Source of the DNA: Alphaproteobacteria bacterium CG_4_9_14_3_um_filter_47_13
GTDB taxonomy: Bacteria; Pseudomonadota; Alphaproteobacteria; Micavibrionales; Micavibrionaceae
NCBI GenBank assembly: GCA_002789675.1
Contig: PFTR01000140.1
Span: 1-40,594, forward strand
DNA: 40,594 bases
Reading direction: 5' to 3'
Part shown: positions 1,788-5,262 of the stretch, in pieces
Numbering within the stretch: the first letter of the stretch is position 1
Layout of the letters: the number at the start of each line of letters is the position of its first letter
Notes under the pieces: generated by a model
What the model was told of the DNA's origin: nothing
Seen by the model: the letters and a program-made list of their open reading frames with translations, nothing else
Database searches by the model: none
Translations under genes and position numbers: made by a program

Positions 1788-1829
1788 TTCCGGTTTCTTT
1801 GTTCTTTTTTGTGGTTTAAAAGAAAAAGT

Positions 1830-2774
1830 ATGACAAACAAATCTTTAAAAAAACTCAGGATTGGAACACGCGGCTCGAAACTTGCGCTGGTGCAGGTTGA
1901 TATGGTCTCGGCCCTGCTGAGGCAGCATAGACCCGATCTTCACATTGAAATTATTAAAATCCTGACATCCGGTGACTGGAAACCCGCAGATGGCGAAACG
2001 CGTCTTTCAGAAACAGAAGGTGGCAAGGGACAGTTTTCAAAGGAAATCGAGCAGGCGCTACTGGATGGAGACATTGACTGCGGTGTCCATTCGATGAAAG
2101 ATATGGAATCTTTCTTACCCGAGGGACTGGCGCTGGATCATATGTTGCCCCGTGAAGATGCGCGGGATGCTTTTCTTTCCAATGCATACAGGAATATCAG
2201 GGACATGCCGTCCGGTGCTGTAATCGGGACATCAAGTGTCCGGCGACAGGCTGTTATACTGGAAAAACGCCCTGATCTTGTGCTTGTTCCCTTGCGCGGG
2301 AATGTTCCTACGCGCATCGAAAAATTACGATCCGGAAAAGTTGATGCTACTTTACTGGCTTTGGCCGGGCTCAGGCGTTTGGGGCTGGAACATGAAATAG
2401 CCTCGATTATCGAGATCGAGGATATGCTCCCTGCGGCGGGACAGGGCGCGGTAGGGATCCAGACACGAACCGGTGATCTGGAAACGCGGCATTTATTAAA
2501 CCGGATTCATTGTGTCACTACGGGTTTGTGTGTGAAGGCCGAGCGCGCCGCACTGGCGGTTCTTGACGGATCCTGTCATACGCCTATCGGCGCTTATGCG
2601 ACACTGGCCGATGATAGAATGCACTTGCGTGTGATTGTGTATTCTCCGGACGGAAAACAGAAATACGAAGAATCCGCCACAAGGGATGTAAGGAATCCAG
2701 AACAGGCCGAAAATTTGGGTCATAAAATTGGCCGTGTTTTAAAAAAGCGTGTTGACCCTGAAATCATCCGCTGA
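1830..2774 (+). CDS. hemC: Porphobilinogen deaminase (hydroxymethylbilane synthase)
   Basis: 314 residues from the ATG at 1830; a TTG at 1809 would add seven residues, but the ATG gives the usual family N-terminus (LRIGTRGSKLALVQ). The enzyme joins four porphobilinogens into hydroxymethylbilane in haem synthesis, in the cytosol. Visible family motifs are GTRGSKLAL, the HSMKD segment, GTSSVRRQA, PLRGNVPTRI and AAGQGAVGI. C249 in DGSCHTPIGAY matches the cysteine that carries the dipyrromethane cofactor. The stop codon directly abuts the ATG of hemD, so the two are translationally coupled. A weak A/G-rich stretch precedes the ATG. The call is secure. Confidence 0.97.
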   Translation: MTNKSLKKLRIGTRGSKLALVQVDMVSALLRQHRPDLHIEIIKILTSGDWKPADGETRLSETEGGKGQFSKEIEQALLDGDIDCGVHSMKDMESFLPEGLALDHMLPREDARDAFLSNAYRNIRDMPSGAVIGTSSVRRQAVILEKRPDLVLVPLRGNVPTRIEKLRSGKVDATLLALAGLRRLGLEHEIASIIEIEDMLPAAGQGAVGIQTRTGDLETRHLLNRIHCVTTGLCVKAERAALAVLDGSCHTPIGAYATLADDRMHLRVIVYSPDGKQKYEESATRDVRNPEQAENLGHKIGRVLKKRVDPEIIR

Positions 2775-3470
2775 ATGAGTGACTTTTTACGATATGTCCT
2801 GATTACGCGGCCTTATGAAGAATCGCAGGACATTGCGCAGGAAGTCGCAATGCAGGGATTTTTACCACTCATTGCGCCGGTACTGGAAATTGTCCCTGTC
2901 CCTTTTGTCTTGCCGGATGACTGTCAAAGGCTGGTTTTCACCAGTGCCAATGCCGTGCGTATGGCCGCCGCGTCACTTCAAAGCCGCCAGCAAATGCTTT
3001 ACTGTGTAGGATCCCATACGGCACAAATAGCCCGGGCATGTGGCTGGAAAACGATCAAAAAAGCGGAGGGTAATATGGCCGCCCTGAATAGATTGCTGGC
3101 GTCTGAAAAACCGGAGTCCGGTGCTTCTTTTGTCCATTTATCCGGCGCGGATATTGCAGCGCCTGTCAAGATTGCAGGAAAGCACGTGAGAAGGATTGTT
3201 GTTTATAAAGCCATATCTTCCGAAAAACTGGATGAGGCTGTCTGGCATATACTGGAAACCGGAAAGATGTATGCAGCCCTGTTTTTTTCGTCACGCTCCG
3301 CCGCCGCGTTTGTGACACTGGCAGAGCGCAGAGGCTGTACGCATACAGTGATGGCAACAAAAGCCTTGTGTCTTGCAGATTCAATGGTAAAGTCTATCTC
3401 AGGGCTGCCGTGGAGAAGCGTACAGGTTGCAGAAACCCCCGACCGCAAATCCCTGCTAGCGCTCTTGTAA
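2775..3470 (+). CDS. hemD: Uroporphyrinogen-III synthase
   Basis: 231 residues. It closes and inverts ring D of hydroxymethylbilane to make uroporphyrinogen III. HemD proteins are poorly conserved. The N-terminal pattern VLITRPYEES...G..PLIAPVLEI, the middle VFTSANAV and the FFSSRSAAAFV segment near residue 175 are typical of the two-domain HemD fold. The gene starts immediately after the hemC stop and ends in a TAA that is part of a palindrome. The order hemC-hemD followed by a Mic60-like gene is a known alphaproteobacterial arrangement and supports the assignment. Confidence 0.9.
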   Translation: MSDFLRYVLITRPYEESQDIAQEVAMQGFLPLIAPVLEIVPVPFVLPDDCQRLVFTSANAVRMAAASLQSRQQMLYCVGSHTAQIARACGWKTIKKAEGNMAALNRLLASEKPESGASFVHLSGADIAAPVKIAGKHVRRIVVYKAISSEKLDEAVWHILETGKMYAALFFSSRSAAAFVTLAERRGCTHTVMATKALCLADSMVKSISGLPWRSVQVAETPDRKSLLALL

Positions 3471-3505
3471 TACCAATTTGCAATCATTAAATGATTACAA
3501 ATTGG
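3468..3505. repeat. Palindrome at the hemD stop codon (TAATACCAATT type)
   Basis: A near-perfect inverted repeat with 16-base arms (3473-3488 and 3490-3505), a one-base centre and one mismatch. It begins inside the hemD stop codon with TAATACCAATT, the same eleven bases that start the palindrome at 12358-12392. There is no U-tract, so it does not look like a normal intrinsic terminator. It may be a member of a dispersed palindromic element family or an mRNA 3'-end stabiliser. Confidence 0.6.
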
Positions 3506-3561
3506 AGGGTTGCGACTGCAATCCCGCGCGAGAGCGCGAAGCCTGCGTGGCGTTTGAACGC

Positions 3562-3585
3562 TTTTGCCATCGAATGATGGCAAAA
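3562..3585. repeat. Perfect hairpin upstream of the Mic60-like gene
   Basis: TTTTGCCATC at 3562-3571 and its exact reverse complement GATGGCAAAA at 3576-3585 enclose a four-base loop GAAT. A smaller G+C hairpin (CGCGC-GAGA-GCGCG, 3525-3538) lies just before it. Together with the palindrome at 3468-3505 the hemD-Mic60 gap is packed with hairpins; they could act on mRNA processing or translation of the downstream gene. The function is not known. Confidence 0.5.
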
Positions 3586-3624
3586 CGGTATAATATAGAG
3601 AATGATAGAATACAGGATGGATTT

Positions 3625-5262
3625 ATGACCGATAAACACGGACAGGCGCAGGGTTCTATAGAAAATGCAGAAGAAATTATTGAACGCTTCGGCGGTATTC
3701 GTCCGATGGCGAATAAAATGAAAGTTCCTGTGACAACGATACAGGGCTGGAAAAAACGTAATATAATACCCGGAAACAGACGGGCGCAGATTCTTGAGGC
3801 CGCAAAGAAAAATCATGTCAGCCTGTCCGGGCTGGTGGAAAATAATGCCGTGAATGAAAATACAGCAGCGGCTCCCGATAAAAAACAATCTGTGGCAGGA
3901 GAACATAATGCTTTCTCGCAAGATGGGGATCGTGTTGCCATCGCAAAAAAACTGGATGATGCGGCGACAAAAGAGGCTGCTTTTTATAATCAGGATATGC
4001 TGAGGGATATGGAGCGCGCCCAGTCTGTAAACTTTAATAAAAGCATGTGGTTCACAGTCGGTTTTGTGACTTTTGTTGTGCTTTTATCCGTCTTGCTTTT
4101 ATGGCCCGAAAAAAAGCAGCTTGACCGTAACAGCCATAATATTGCGCAGTTACAGGAAGATATGTCCGGCGTTCAGAAAAAACAGTCCTTTTTGAGCAAT
4201 CTTGTTCCCGGGGATCTTGACCAGCGCGTTGCCAGGCTTCAGGAGCAGGCCAGAACAATAGAGCAGACGGTTACAGCTCTGGGCTCGCAGGTTGATGTGA
4301 TTGCCAGAGAGACTCTGGAGCCGGATCAGTCTATGGCAACGAGAATCCGGACTCTGGAAGACCATGCAACAAAACTGGGCGCGCCGGTTCAGCTCGTCGA
4401 TATGCTTCGCAGGGTTGCGATTATGCAGGAATCGCTTGAAGGGCAGTCACAGCTCTCCGGAGGGATTGTAAAACTGAATGCCCTGTTGCAGGGCATGCAA
4501 CAGGATGGTGAAAATGAAGAAACAATTGAAATGGCATTGATGCAGGCGCAACAGGAGGATTCTTCTCTCGGGCAGGCTTTGCAGGGTGTTGCGCCGCAGG
4601 ATATGAAGGCCGCTGTCATGTTACTCGGACTGACGCAGTTTCGTCATTCTTTGAATCGCAGCGCGCCCTTTGAAGAAGATCTTGTTCTCATGCAAAATCT
4701 GCCGGGTATGGATGATCCGGAACTGCAATCCGCTATTTCAAAGCTTGCACCGAAAGCGGCAAGCGGTCTGCTGACCCCGGAAGGTTTGAAAAATGAATTT
4801 AAAGGGCTTGCCGGAGATATTGTTGTGTCTTCTCTTAAAGGCGAGGATATTGCGATTAAGGAGAAAGCCAGAGCGCGGTTCAATGAATTACTTTCGGTTG
4901 AGAAAGAGGGTGAGTTATTAACCGGAACGGAAACACAGATAAAAGTCGCCCGGGCGCAAAAATTACTGGATGAAGGAAATATTCAGGGTGCTATCATCGA
5001 ATTACAGGGGCTTGAAGGCGAGGCTGCACAGACAGCGCAGCCCTTTATAGAGAATGCACAATTCACCATGCTTGCAGAGAAATTGCAGGGTATGTTTGCT
5101 GACCGTGTTATAATGAATATCGGGCAATCTGCCTCAACAGGCAGTGTTGGTACAAGCCAGCTTATCGGCGAAATTAAAAAGCTTGCTCCTCACAGACGGA
5201 TTTTTAAAGATGAAGAATCCGGCCTGATTATACTGGAACCCGTAACCGGACTTTCTCCTTAG
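3625..5262 (+). CDS. Mic60/mitofilin-like inner-membrane protein (COG4223 type) with N-terminal HTH
   Basis: 545 residues from the ATG at 3625; earlier in-frame starts exist back to 3478, but they would translate the hairpin-rich spacer. Residues ~15-65 look like a small helix-turn-helix of the YdaS/Cro kind (GGIRPMANKMKVPVTTIQGW, then KKRNIIPGNRR). One membrane segment follows at ~141-161, then a long periplasmic coiled coil (Q-, E- and L-rich, ~165-330). The C-terminal half matches the alphaproteobacterial mitofilin pattern: FRHSLNRSAPFEEDL, AASGLLTPEGLKNEF, LLDEGNIQGAIIELQGLEGEA. Bacterial Mic60 relatives shape inner-membrane invaginations and contact the outer membrane; this role is inferred. 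Its position after hemD is typical of the family. The HTH in front of the membrane anchor is the unusual part. Confidence 0.82.
   Translation: MTDKHGQAQGSIENAEEIIERFGGIRPMANKMKVPVTTIQGWKKRNIIPGNRRAQILEAAKKNHVSLSGLVENNAVNENTAAAPDKKQSVAGEHNAFSQDGDRVAIAKKLDDAATKEAAFYNQDMLRDMERAQSVNFNKSMWFTVGFVTFVVLLSVLLLWPEKKQLDRNSHNIAQLQEDMSGVQKKQSFLSNLVPGDLDQRVARLQEQARTIEQTVTALGSQVDVIARETLEPDQSMATRIRTLEDHATKLGAPVQLVDMLRRVAIMQESLEGQSQLSGGIVKLNALLQGMQQDGENEETIEMALMQAQQEDSSLGQALQGVAPQDMKAAVMLLGLTQFRHSLNRSAPFEEDLVLMQNLPGMDDPELQSAISKLAPKAASGLLTPEGLKNEFKGLAGDIVVSSLKGEDIAIKEKARARFNELLSVEKEGELLTGTETQIKVARAQKLLDEGNIQGAIIELQGLEGEAAQTAQPFIENAQFTMLAEKLQGMFADRVIMNIGQSASTGSVGTSQLIGEIKKLAPHRRIFKDEESGLIILEPVTGLSP

Follow-up and report, generated by a model that had tools for sequence, protein, structure and literature searches.

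A Cro-type helix-turn-helix domain at the N-terminus of a Mic60-like protein encoded beside heme genes in Alphaproteobacteria

Mic60 (mitofilin, PF09731) is characterized by one N-terminal membrane helix, long helices and a C-terminal mitofilin domain, and Mic60 self-associates. To our knowledge, the human protein has no known DNA-binding domain. RodZ has a cytoplasmic helix-turn-helix (HTH) domain before its membrane helix, which binds the actin-like MreB rather than DNA; the domains of this family are HTH_25 and the RodZ C-terminal domain. RacA, Noc, CadC and ToxR are membrane-linked DNA binders. The heme neighborhood of the IMMP/mitofilin gene has been noted in print (the part of PMC7641849 that was available). 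For human Mic60, an interaction with TFAM and co-precipitation with TFAM and mtDNA have been reported (the available part of PMC4303897); this mitochondrial report is a parallel and not evidence on the protein described here. We found no report of a Mic60 with an N-terminal HTH domain in the portion of the open-access literature that was searched, and the available parts of PMC12136173, PMC12631773 and PMC9764997 do not mention this architecture; an earlier mention cannot be excluded.

The window, i.e., the whole stretch of DNA analyzed here (40,594 nucleotides), encodes a protein that shows the Mic60 traits, including the heme-gene neighborhood, and adds to them a Cro-type HTH domain of about 50 residues (Table 1). 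A sequence-only reading had proposed a Mic60-like protein with a single membrane helix, a mitofilin-like C-terminus and an N-terminal HTH, and our analysis confirmed this architecture. The mitofilin score (35.2 bits) passes the curated Pfam cut-off of 27.4, and a full-length profile of 78 proteins matched 7pv1, a solved MIC60-MIC19 fusion (E=6.6e-9). These 78 are the window protein and 77 complete relatives, which were picked via the HTH; 72 of them matched mitofilin at E<=0.01. In the full-length AlphaFold2 model based on the 78-protein alignment, an ordered HTH and an ordered, helical C-terminal part flank a disordered segment (residues 76-110), with long helices at 114-192 and 197-230. The best 19-residue hydropathy window begins at residue 141. 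The membrane helix and the long helices or coiled coil thus rest on hydropathy and predicted structure only, and a Foldseek search with the full-length model returned only weak helical look-alikes. The reading frame is also open further upstream, with a TTG start at 3478; the ATG was retained. For the relatives, a script placed each start at a nearby ATG, so that their starts cannot serve as independent evidence for this one. The conserved region begins at about residues 11-15.

Table 1. Features of the gene for HTH-Mic60, of its product (residue numbers) and of the two upstream genes in the window
Feature	Position	Strand	Basis or remark
hemC (porphobilinogen deaminase), upstream neighbor	1809..2774	+	name by reading of the sequence; start likely internal ATG 1830
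hemD (uroporphyrinogen-III synthase), upstream neighbor	2775..3470	+	name by reading of the sequence
HTH-Mic60 gene	3625..5262	+	545 aa; open frame, Pfam match
Cro-type HTH domain, residues 15-62	3667..3810	+	AlphaFold2, Cro fold matches, PHROGs, PDB profile matches
Recognition helix, residues 36-45 (VTTIQGWKKR)	3730..3759	+	predicted helix
Linker of low predicted order, residues 76-110	3850..3954	+	pLDDT under 50
Single membrane helix, about residues 141-160	4045..4104	+	hydropathy 2.46; within predicted helix 114-192
Long helices, presumed coiled coil, about residues 163-230	4111..4314	+	predicted structure
Mitofilin domain PF09731, residues 328-478	4606..5058	+	Pfam E=9.5e-9; PDB 7pv1 match

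The N-terminal domain was predicted with confidence. A prediction without an HTH fold had been set beforehand as refuting the sequence-only reading; AlphaFold2 gave a Cro-kind HTH with helices at residues 15-21, 25-32, 36-45 and 50-62, and the domain modeled alone (47 sequences) reached a mean pLDDT of 92-97 per ten-residue block over residues 11-60. The Cro proteins of N15 and Xfaso-1 were the top fold matches (Foldseek probability 0.99, E 0.19-0.20); the probabilities for the N15, Xfaso-1 and P22 Cro proteins ranged from 0.77 to 0.99, and no match in the Foldseek search reached E<=0.001. VIA gave Z 6.9 for N15 and Xfaso-1 Cro (rmsd 2.7-3.3 over 61-63 residues), which is in the middling range for this tool, and Z 6.2 for P22 Cro. 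The predicted fold therefore meets the Cro-kind arrangement, with the Cro proteins as best matches at modest scores. Sequence profiles pointed the same way. In PHROGs, the HTH of the window protein matched a DNA-binding protein (E=1.8e-5) and a transcriptional regulator (E=2.3e-5), and a PDB search with a 20-sequence HTH profile found Xfaso-1 Cro (3bd1, E=0.0013) and P22 Cro (1rzs, E=0.0067), with the RacA HTH as a weak match (5i41, E=0.023). All 20 members of the HTH alignment, window included, matched YdaS_toxin and P22_Cro at E<=1. The Pfam match to P22_Cro (PF14549) was weak (E=0.15 for the whole window protein and 0.0084 for its 74 aa alone), and its 12.3 and 16.3 bits, respectively, do not reach the cut-off of 30.2; the YdaS_toxin match (PF15943) also stays below its cut-off (14 vs 30), so that the domain is not filed in either Pfam family. 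These results support the reading of an N-terminal Cro-type HTH on Mic60.

This architecture is not the oddity of one genome, since it is carried by 49 of 53 order-level genomes and by 25 of 115 class loci. Among 58 genomes of the same genus, family or order, 53 gave a match, and the HTH lay within the Mic60 gene in 49 of these, including one split over two contigs (G011); G029, G041, G044 and G045 had no fused HTH match. A stand-alone 74-aa HTH frame (L310, G041:C56) was seen in this order, in a genome whose Mic60 match is without the HTH part. The class draw comprised 289 genomes, of which 134 had a mitofilin match and 115 were above the Pfam cut-off, counted as one locus per genome; four extra over-cut-off places occur in G085 (two), G267 and G337. 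With E<0.001 required for an HTH match, the domain was present in 25 loci from 15 families and absent in 90, so that the basic work of Mic60 does not require it. One of the 90 gave a weak match (E 0.08, residues 251-261), and no HTH was found at E<=0.01 elsewhere in the fetched stretches of these 90 loci. Another locus counted as negative (G121) is truncated where its contig stops, and an HTH frame likewise runs up to a different contig end; the true count is possibly 26 rather than 25. In the phylum-level draw, 10 of 398 genomes matched, four of them outside the class (E 8e-5 to 9e-4).

A scan of a contig collection with the HTH alignment gave 297 confirmed loci. The best 80, which were retained, were mostly Micavibrio and alphaproteobacterial MAGs, with Skermanella, Inquilinus, Aerophototrophica, Azospirillaceae and Rhodospirillaceae among the other titles. 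The HTH also occurred at 35 places that do not adjoin an over-cut-off mitofilin locus. We examined 19 of these and one order-level place; 11 had a membrane helix after the HTH, six were enzyme fusions, one was stand-alone and two were cut. In these fusions, which come from other alphaproteobacteria, an HTH of the same kind forms the N-terminus of the enzyme. L305 and L306 are NAD(P)H-hydrate epimerase/dehydratases (L305 checked in Pfam), L299 is a phosphoglycerate dehydrogenase (Pfam check), and L294-L296 join the HTH to a zinc dehydrogenase that, by our own reading, resembles crotonyl-CoA reductase (L294 checked in Pfam). Capture of phage Cro domains may be a wider habit of Alphaproteobacteria.

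The gene lies downstream of hemC and hemD, as is characteristic of alphaproteobacterial Mic60 orthologs. Among the best 80 of the 297 loci, hemD was matched in 79 and hemC in 72. Within the fetched stretch of about 3.2 kb upstream, a hemC or hemD match was found in 25 of 25 HTH-carrying class loci and in 81 of the 90 without the HTH. The expectation that the same architecture would be found near hemD in other alphaproteobacteria was thus met widely, though 90 of 115 class loci have no HTH; because these share the neighborhood, the heme location belongs to Mic60 and not to the HTH. HemD and Mic60 occupy one open frame in 29 of 115 class loci, four of them with the HTH, which suggests that heme synthesis and Mic60 are physically linked. 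Such a shared frame was also seen in L101, L103, L106-L108, L110, L135 and L168 (partial HemD matches in L103 and L108). In L307, HemD, the HTH and a membrane helix stand in one frame matching the Pfam families HEM4 and P22_Cro, and Pfam found no mitofilin there at E<=0.01. Between hemD and mic60, the window contains a MITE-like palindromic element (3470-3591) with 24-nt terminal inverted repeats (79% complementary) and two inner inverted repeats; a second copy, 81% identical, lies at G000:C124:67-194.

The placement of the HTH on the cytoplasmic side of the membrane is favored. A 19-residue window of hydropathy >=1.6 follows residue 60 in 78 of 78 proteins, and in the class set such a window lies between the HTH and the mitofilin part in 24 of 25, the remaining one reaching 1.58. 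HemD is cytosolic and, in some members, shares the frame N-terminally; together with the membrane segment after the HTH, this puts the HTH in the cytoplasm. The N-side flank of the membrane helix was the more positive one in 53 of the 78 proteins and equal in 12; the window protein is among the latter (+1, +1), and its own flanks therefore do not favor this placement.

The 25 class proteins were selected by their C-terminus and are a fair set for judging the conservation of the HTH. The alignments derived from the 80 loci, including that of the 78 proteins, are biased in this respect because the patterns by which these loci were detected lie in the HTH. In the class set, the HTH averaged 57.5% pairwise identity, compared with 31.2% in the mitofilin part, and was the more conserved of the two in 300 of 300 pairs. 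Loss of the recognition-helix residues across homologs would have counted against the sequence-only reading; the residues were not lost. The helix, T-[VI]-Q-G-W-K-x-R, is nearly invariant, with T38, Q40 and W42 kept in 25 of 25 proteins and G41, K43 and R45 in 24. The domain is also strongly positive. The net charge of its 31-aa core averages +5 and is at least +2 both in the 78 and in the 25 proteins; R26, K31, K43, R45 and R52 are basic in 24 or 25 of 25, and no acidic position is invariant. These data bear on the view that the HTH is a relic with a structural role only, such as dimerization or stability of the N-terminus. Dimerization belongs to Cro biology, and the absence of the domain from 90 of 115 class loci would agree with this view. 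Retention of the recognition helix would hardly be expected of a relic, however, given the much stronger drift of the C-terminal domain, and we regard this explanation as very improbable.

The history of the fusion was approached with trees of both parts. The Mic60 tree built from the mitofilin part was poorly resolved. It requires at least 17 changes of HTH state, compared with a shuffled mean of 22.7; none of 500 shuffles was as low for the HTH and one of 500 for its absence, and one family (f58) holds both states. This tree cannot tell whether the HTH was gained once. A first HTH tree had extreme branches for G085, L307, L297 and L296, apparently miscut by the pattern, and was repeated with profile limits. 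In the HTH tree of 91 pieces, the Mic60 labels were strongly grouped and a single Mic60 clade was not rejected (AU p 0.72). The tree has few columns and no root, and non-rejection does not show such a clade. Its Mic60 labels also include membrane-helix frames and the contig-cut L301 and L313 without a Pfam test; L307, with the Pfam result given above, is the only such frame that was tested. Identities of the HTH and the mitofilin part were correlated (Mantel 0.30, p 0.003), which gives weak support, from sequence comparison alone, to the view that the two parts were inherited jointly. The simplest, though inferred, history is a single ancient capture from a temperate phage.

Among the stand-alone relatives of the HTH that we found, most of the closest are Cro-like proteins from phages of alphaproteobacteria. 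Five records of annotated phages matched (E 8e-6 to 1e-3), and two of them, from Paracoccus phage Psul1 and Sinorhizobium phage phi2LM21, are annotated as Cro-like. The Psul1 gene (E=8e-6, 40% identity) is divergent from an adjoining CI-like repressor gene. Viral contigs gave 47 loci, of which 34 were distinct, with a median frame of 85 aa and up to 56% identity. The HTH of Mic60 thus shares fold, sequence and, with a subset, the reading head of temperate-phage Cro proteins of the N15, P22 and Xfaso-1 kind, but it is fused to a membrane protein, its reading head is nearly fixed and no operator was found nearby.

In the phages, the reading head and the operator vary together. TACG-N7-CGTA was present within 160 bases upstream of cro in 18 of 23 distinct phages with a QGW head (21 with at most one mismatch), while beside 11 non-QGW heads it was never exact and occurred once with one mismatch. 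GTGC-N7-GCAC, in contrast, accompanied five of six KSW or MSW heads and none of the 23 QGW heads. The best dyad in shuffled sequences reached at most 5 of 23. No operators were found within single phages by the strict criterion; the dyads came from the comparison between phages. Because the patterns used to collect the viral loci lie within the HTH, and one of them is the QGW head itself, the frequency of QGW over all phages is biased, and only a scaffold-matched comparison escapes this bias. Within the FGGIRP scaffold common to Mic60, TACG-N7-CGTA was found with three of four QGW heads and none of 11 others, and the QGW head was present in 22 of 23 class Mic60 proteins vs 4 of 15 phage Cro proteins. 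Since many QGW phages have related promoter regions, the 18 of 23 cannot all be counted as separate events, and the same operators probably serve the CI repressor as well. We consider the covariation of head and operator, as read from these upstream regions, to be a small natural recognition code. With QGW near-fixed in class Mic60, the phage correspondence makes TACG-N7-CGTA the predicted target of HTH-Mic60, for which there are no binding data.

Searches for this target in bacterial DNA were largely negative. The window contains no exact TACG-N7-CGTA and one site with one mismatch, where 7.3 were expected. No enrichment was found in 745 kb of HTH-carrying loci (3 vs 3.6 in shuffles) or upstream of hemC (3 of 55 with one mismatch allowed vs 1.6). 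The whole genome of the window has 10 sites; seven lie within frames of 298 aa or more, and the remaining three, for which the covering frames have just 110 to 172 aa, may be intergenic. Counts per genome were 5 to 30 in 11 genomes with the HTH and 1 to 10 in nine without it. These 20 genomes were chosen by hand, and the three highest counts are from two members of the window's family and G265. With overlapping counts, genome-wide enrichment of the target is not convincing.

The same regions bear on whether HTH-Mic60 is a membrane-bound regulator of its own hemC-hemD-mic60 operon or of a few other genes. Cro is a repressor fold, hemC and hemD are matched in the fetched stretch of all 25 HTH-carrying class loci, and the fusion of the same HTH kind to metabolic enzymes recalls trigger enzymes. 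In addition, some dyads upstream of hemC exceed the shuffles. The best reached 7 of 55 regions (shuffled best 2 to 4), compared with 4 of 81 upstream of mic60 (shuffled at most 2), and a TGTA-N7-TACA-like dyad occurred upstream of hemC in 12 of 55 at one mismatch vs 3.1 in shuffles. This last dyad was chosen after viewing the sequences and is a lead only. By eye, this dyad appears as a recurrent TGTAAAGnnnnTACA-like stretch upstream of hemC in L095, L113, L118, L123, L129 and L130. The hemC-upstream dyads, however, reach a minority of loci only, and the regions partly overlap the neighboring gene; by our reading, many of the enriched upstream words are coding sequence of tsaD or hemD, and the tsaD-hemC gap, found in 45 loci, narrows to 17 bases in the shortest case. 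These regions also show no enrichment of the predicted phage-type site, and Mic60 genes without the HTH occupy the same neighborhood (81 of 90). Autoregulation through a shared operator was rejected, as no dyad was common to most loci upstream of hemC or mic60. We consider a regulatory role improbable, and the lack of a common operator favors a structural tether over a regulator of a single promoter.

A further question is whether the HTH contacts DNA at all. It may be a protein-binding module as in RodZ, with its invariant face holding a conserved cytoplasmic partner of Mic60. RodZ has the same layout, with a cytoplasmic HTH, a linker, one membrane helix and a periplasmic domain, and it also serves envelope shaping. 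The extreme conservation of one HTH surface and the absence of an enriched DNA site fit a protein partner equally well. The window protein differs from RodZ in its Cro/YdaS-like HTH and its mitofilin domain, and RodZ family domains were absent from the five Pfam families matched by the window protein at E<=10 and from the 25 Pfam families listed, of 50, for the 78 relatives. Moreover, the positions that covary with the operator among phage Cro proteins are among the conserved ones, and the HTH surface is strongly basic. We judge a protein-binding role rather unlikely, although use of the HTH as a DNA tether and its use in protein interaction cannot be separated by our data. DNA is favored by conservation of the reading head, by the positive charge and by the correspondence with phage operators, but not by the lack of an enriched site. 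The most likely order is a DNA tether, followed by a RodZ-like partner and by autoregulation.

We therefore favor, tentatively and at slightly less than an even chance, an alphaproteobacterial Mic60 that has captured a temperate-phage Cro domain and binds DNA from the membrane, the binding being inferred without data. The cytoplasmic N-terminus of Mic60 would be a DNA-binding domain taken from a Cro repressor that still binds DNA. Self-associated Mic60 would present several copies of the HTH, so that weak single sites could add up; this avidity is an inference, as is a position at the nucleoid. A stretch of the chromosome would then be held at membrane sites bent by Mic60, and the preferred site would resemble that of phage Cro with the same head, TACG-N7-CGTA. 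HTH-Mic60 would thus hold or read DNA from the membrane as RacA, Noc, CadC and ToxR do; its architecture differs, and we do not claim membership in any of these groups.

HTH-Mic60 probably exemplifies the incorporation of a phage repressor domain into a conserved membrane protein, and it touches on the open question of what links crista-like membranes of bacteria to their chromosome. Because this Mic60 has a built-in, conserved domain of a DNA-reading type, a link between Mic60 and DNA becomes directly testable in bacteria, with a predicted site at hand. The broadest form of the proposal is that Mic60 in a broad part of Alphaproteobacteria is a sequence-reading DNA anchor, derived from one ancient capture of a phage Cro and preferring TACG-N7-CGTA-like sites; we put this forward as a speculation that is unlikely to hold in full. 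If it is true, bacteria would have had a direct link between Mic60 and DNA that either parallels or predates the link between Mic60 and the nucleoid reported in mitochondria.
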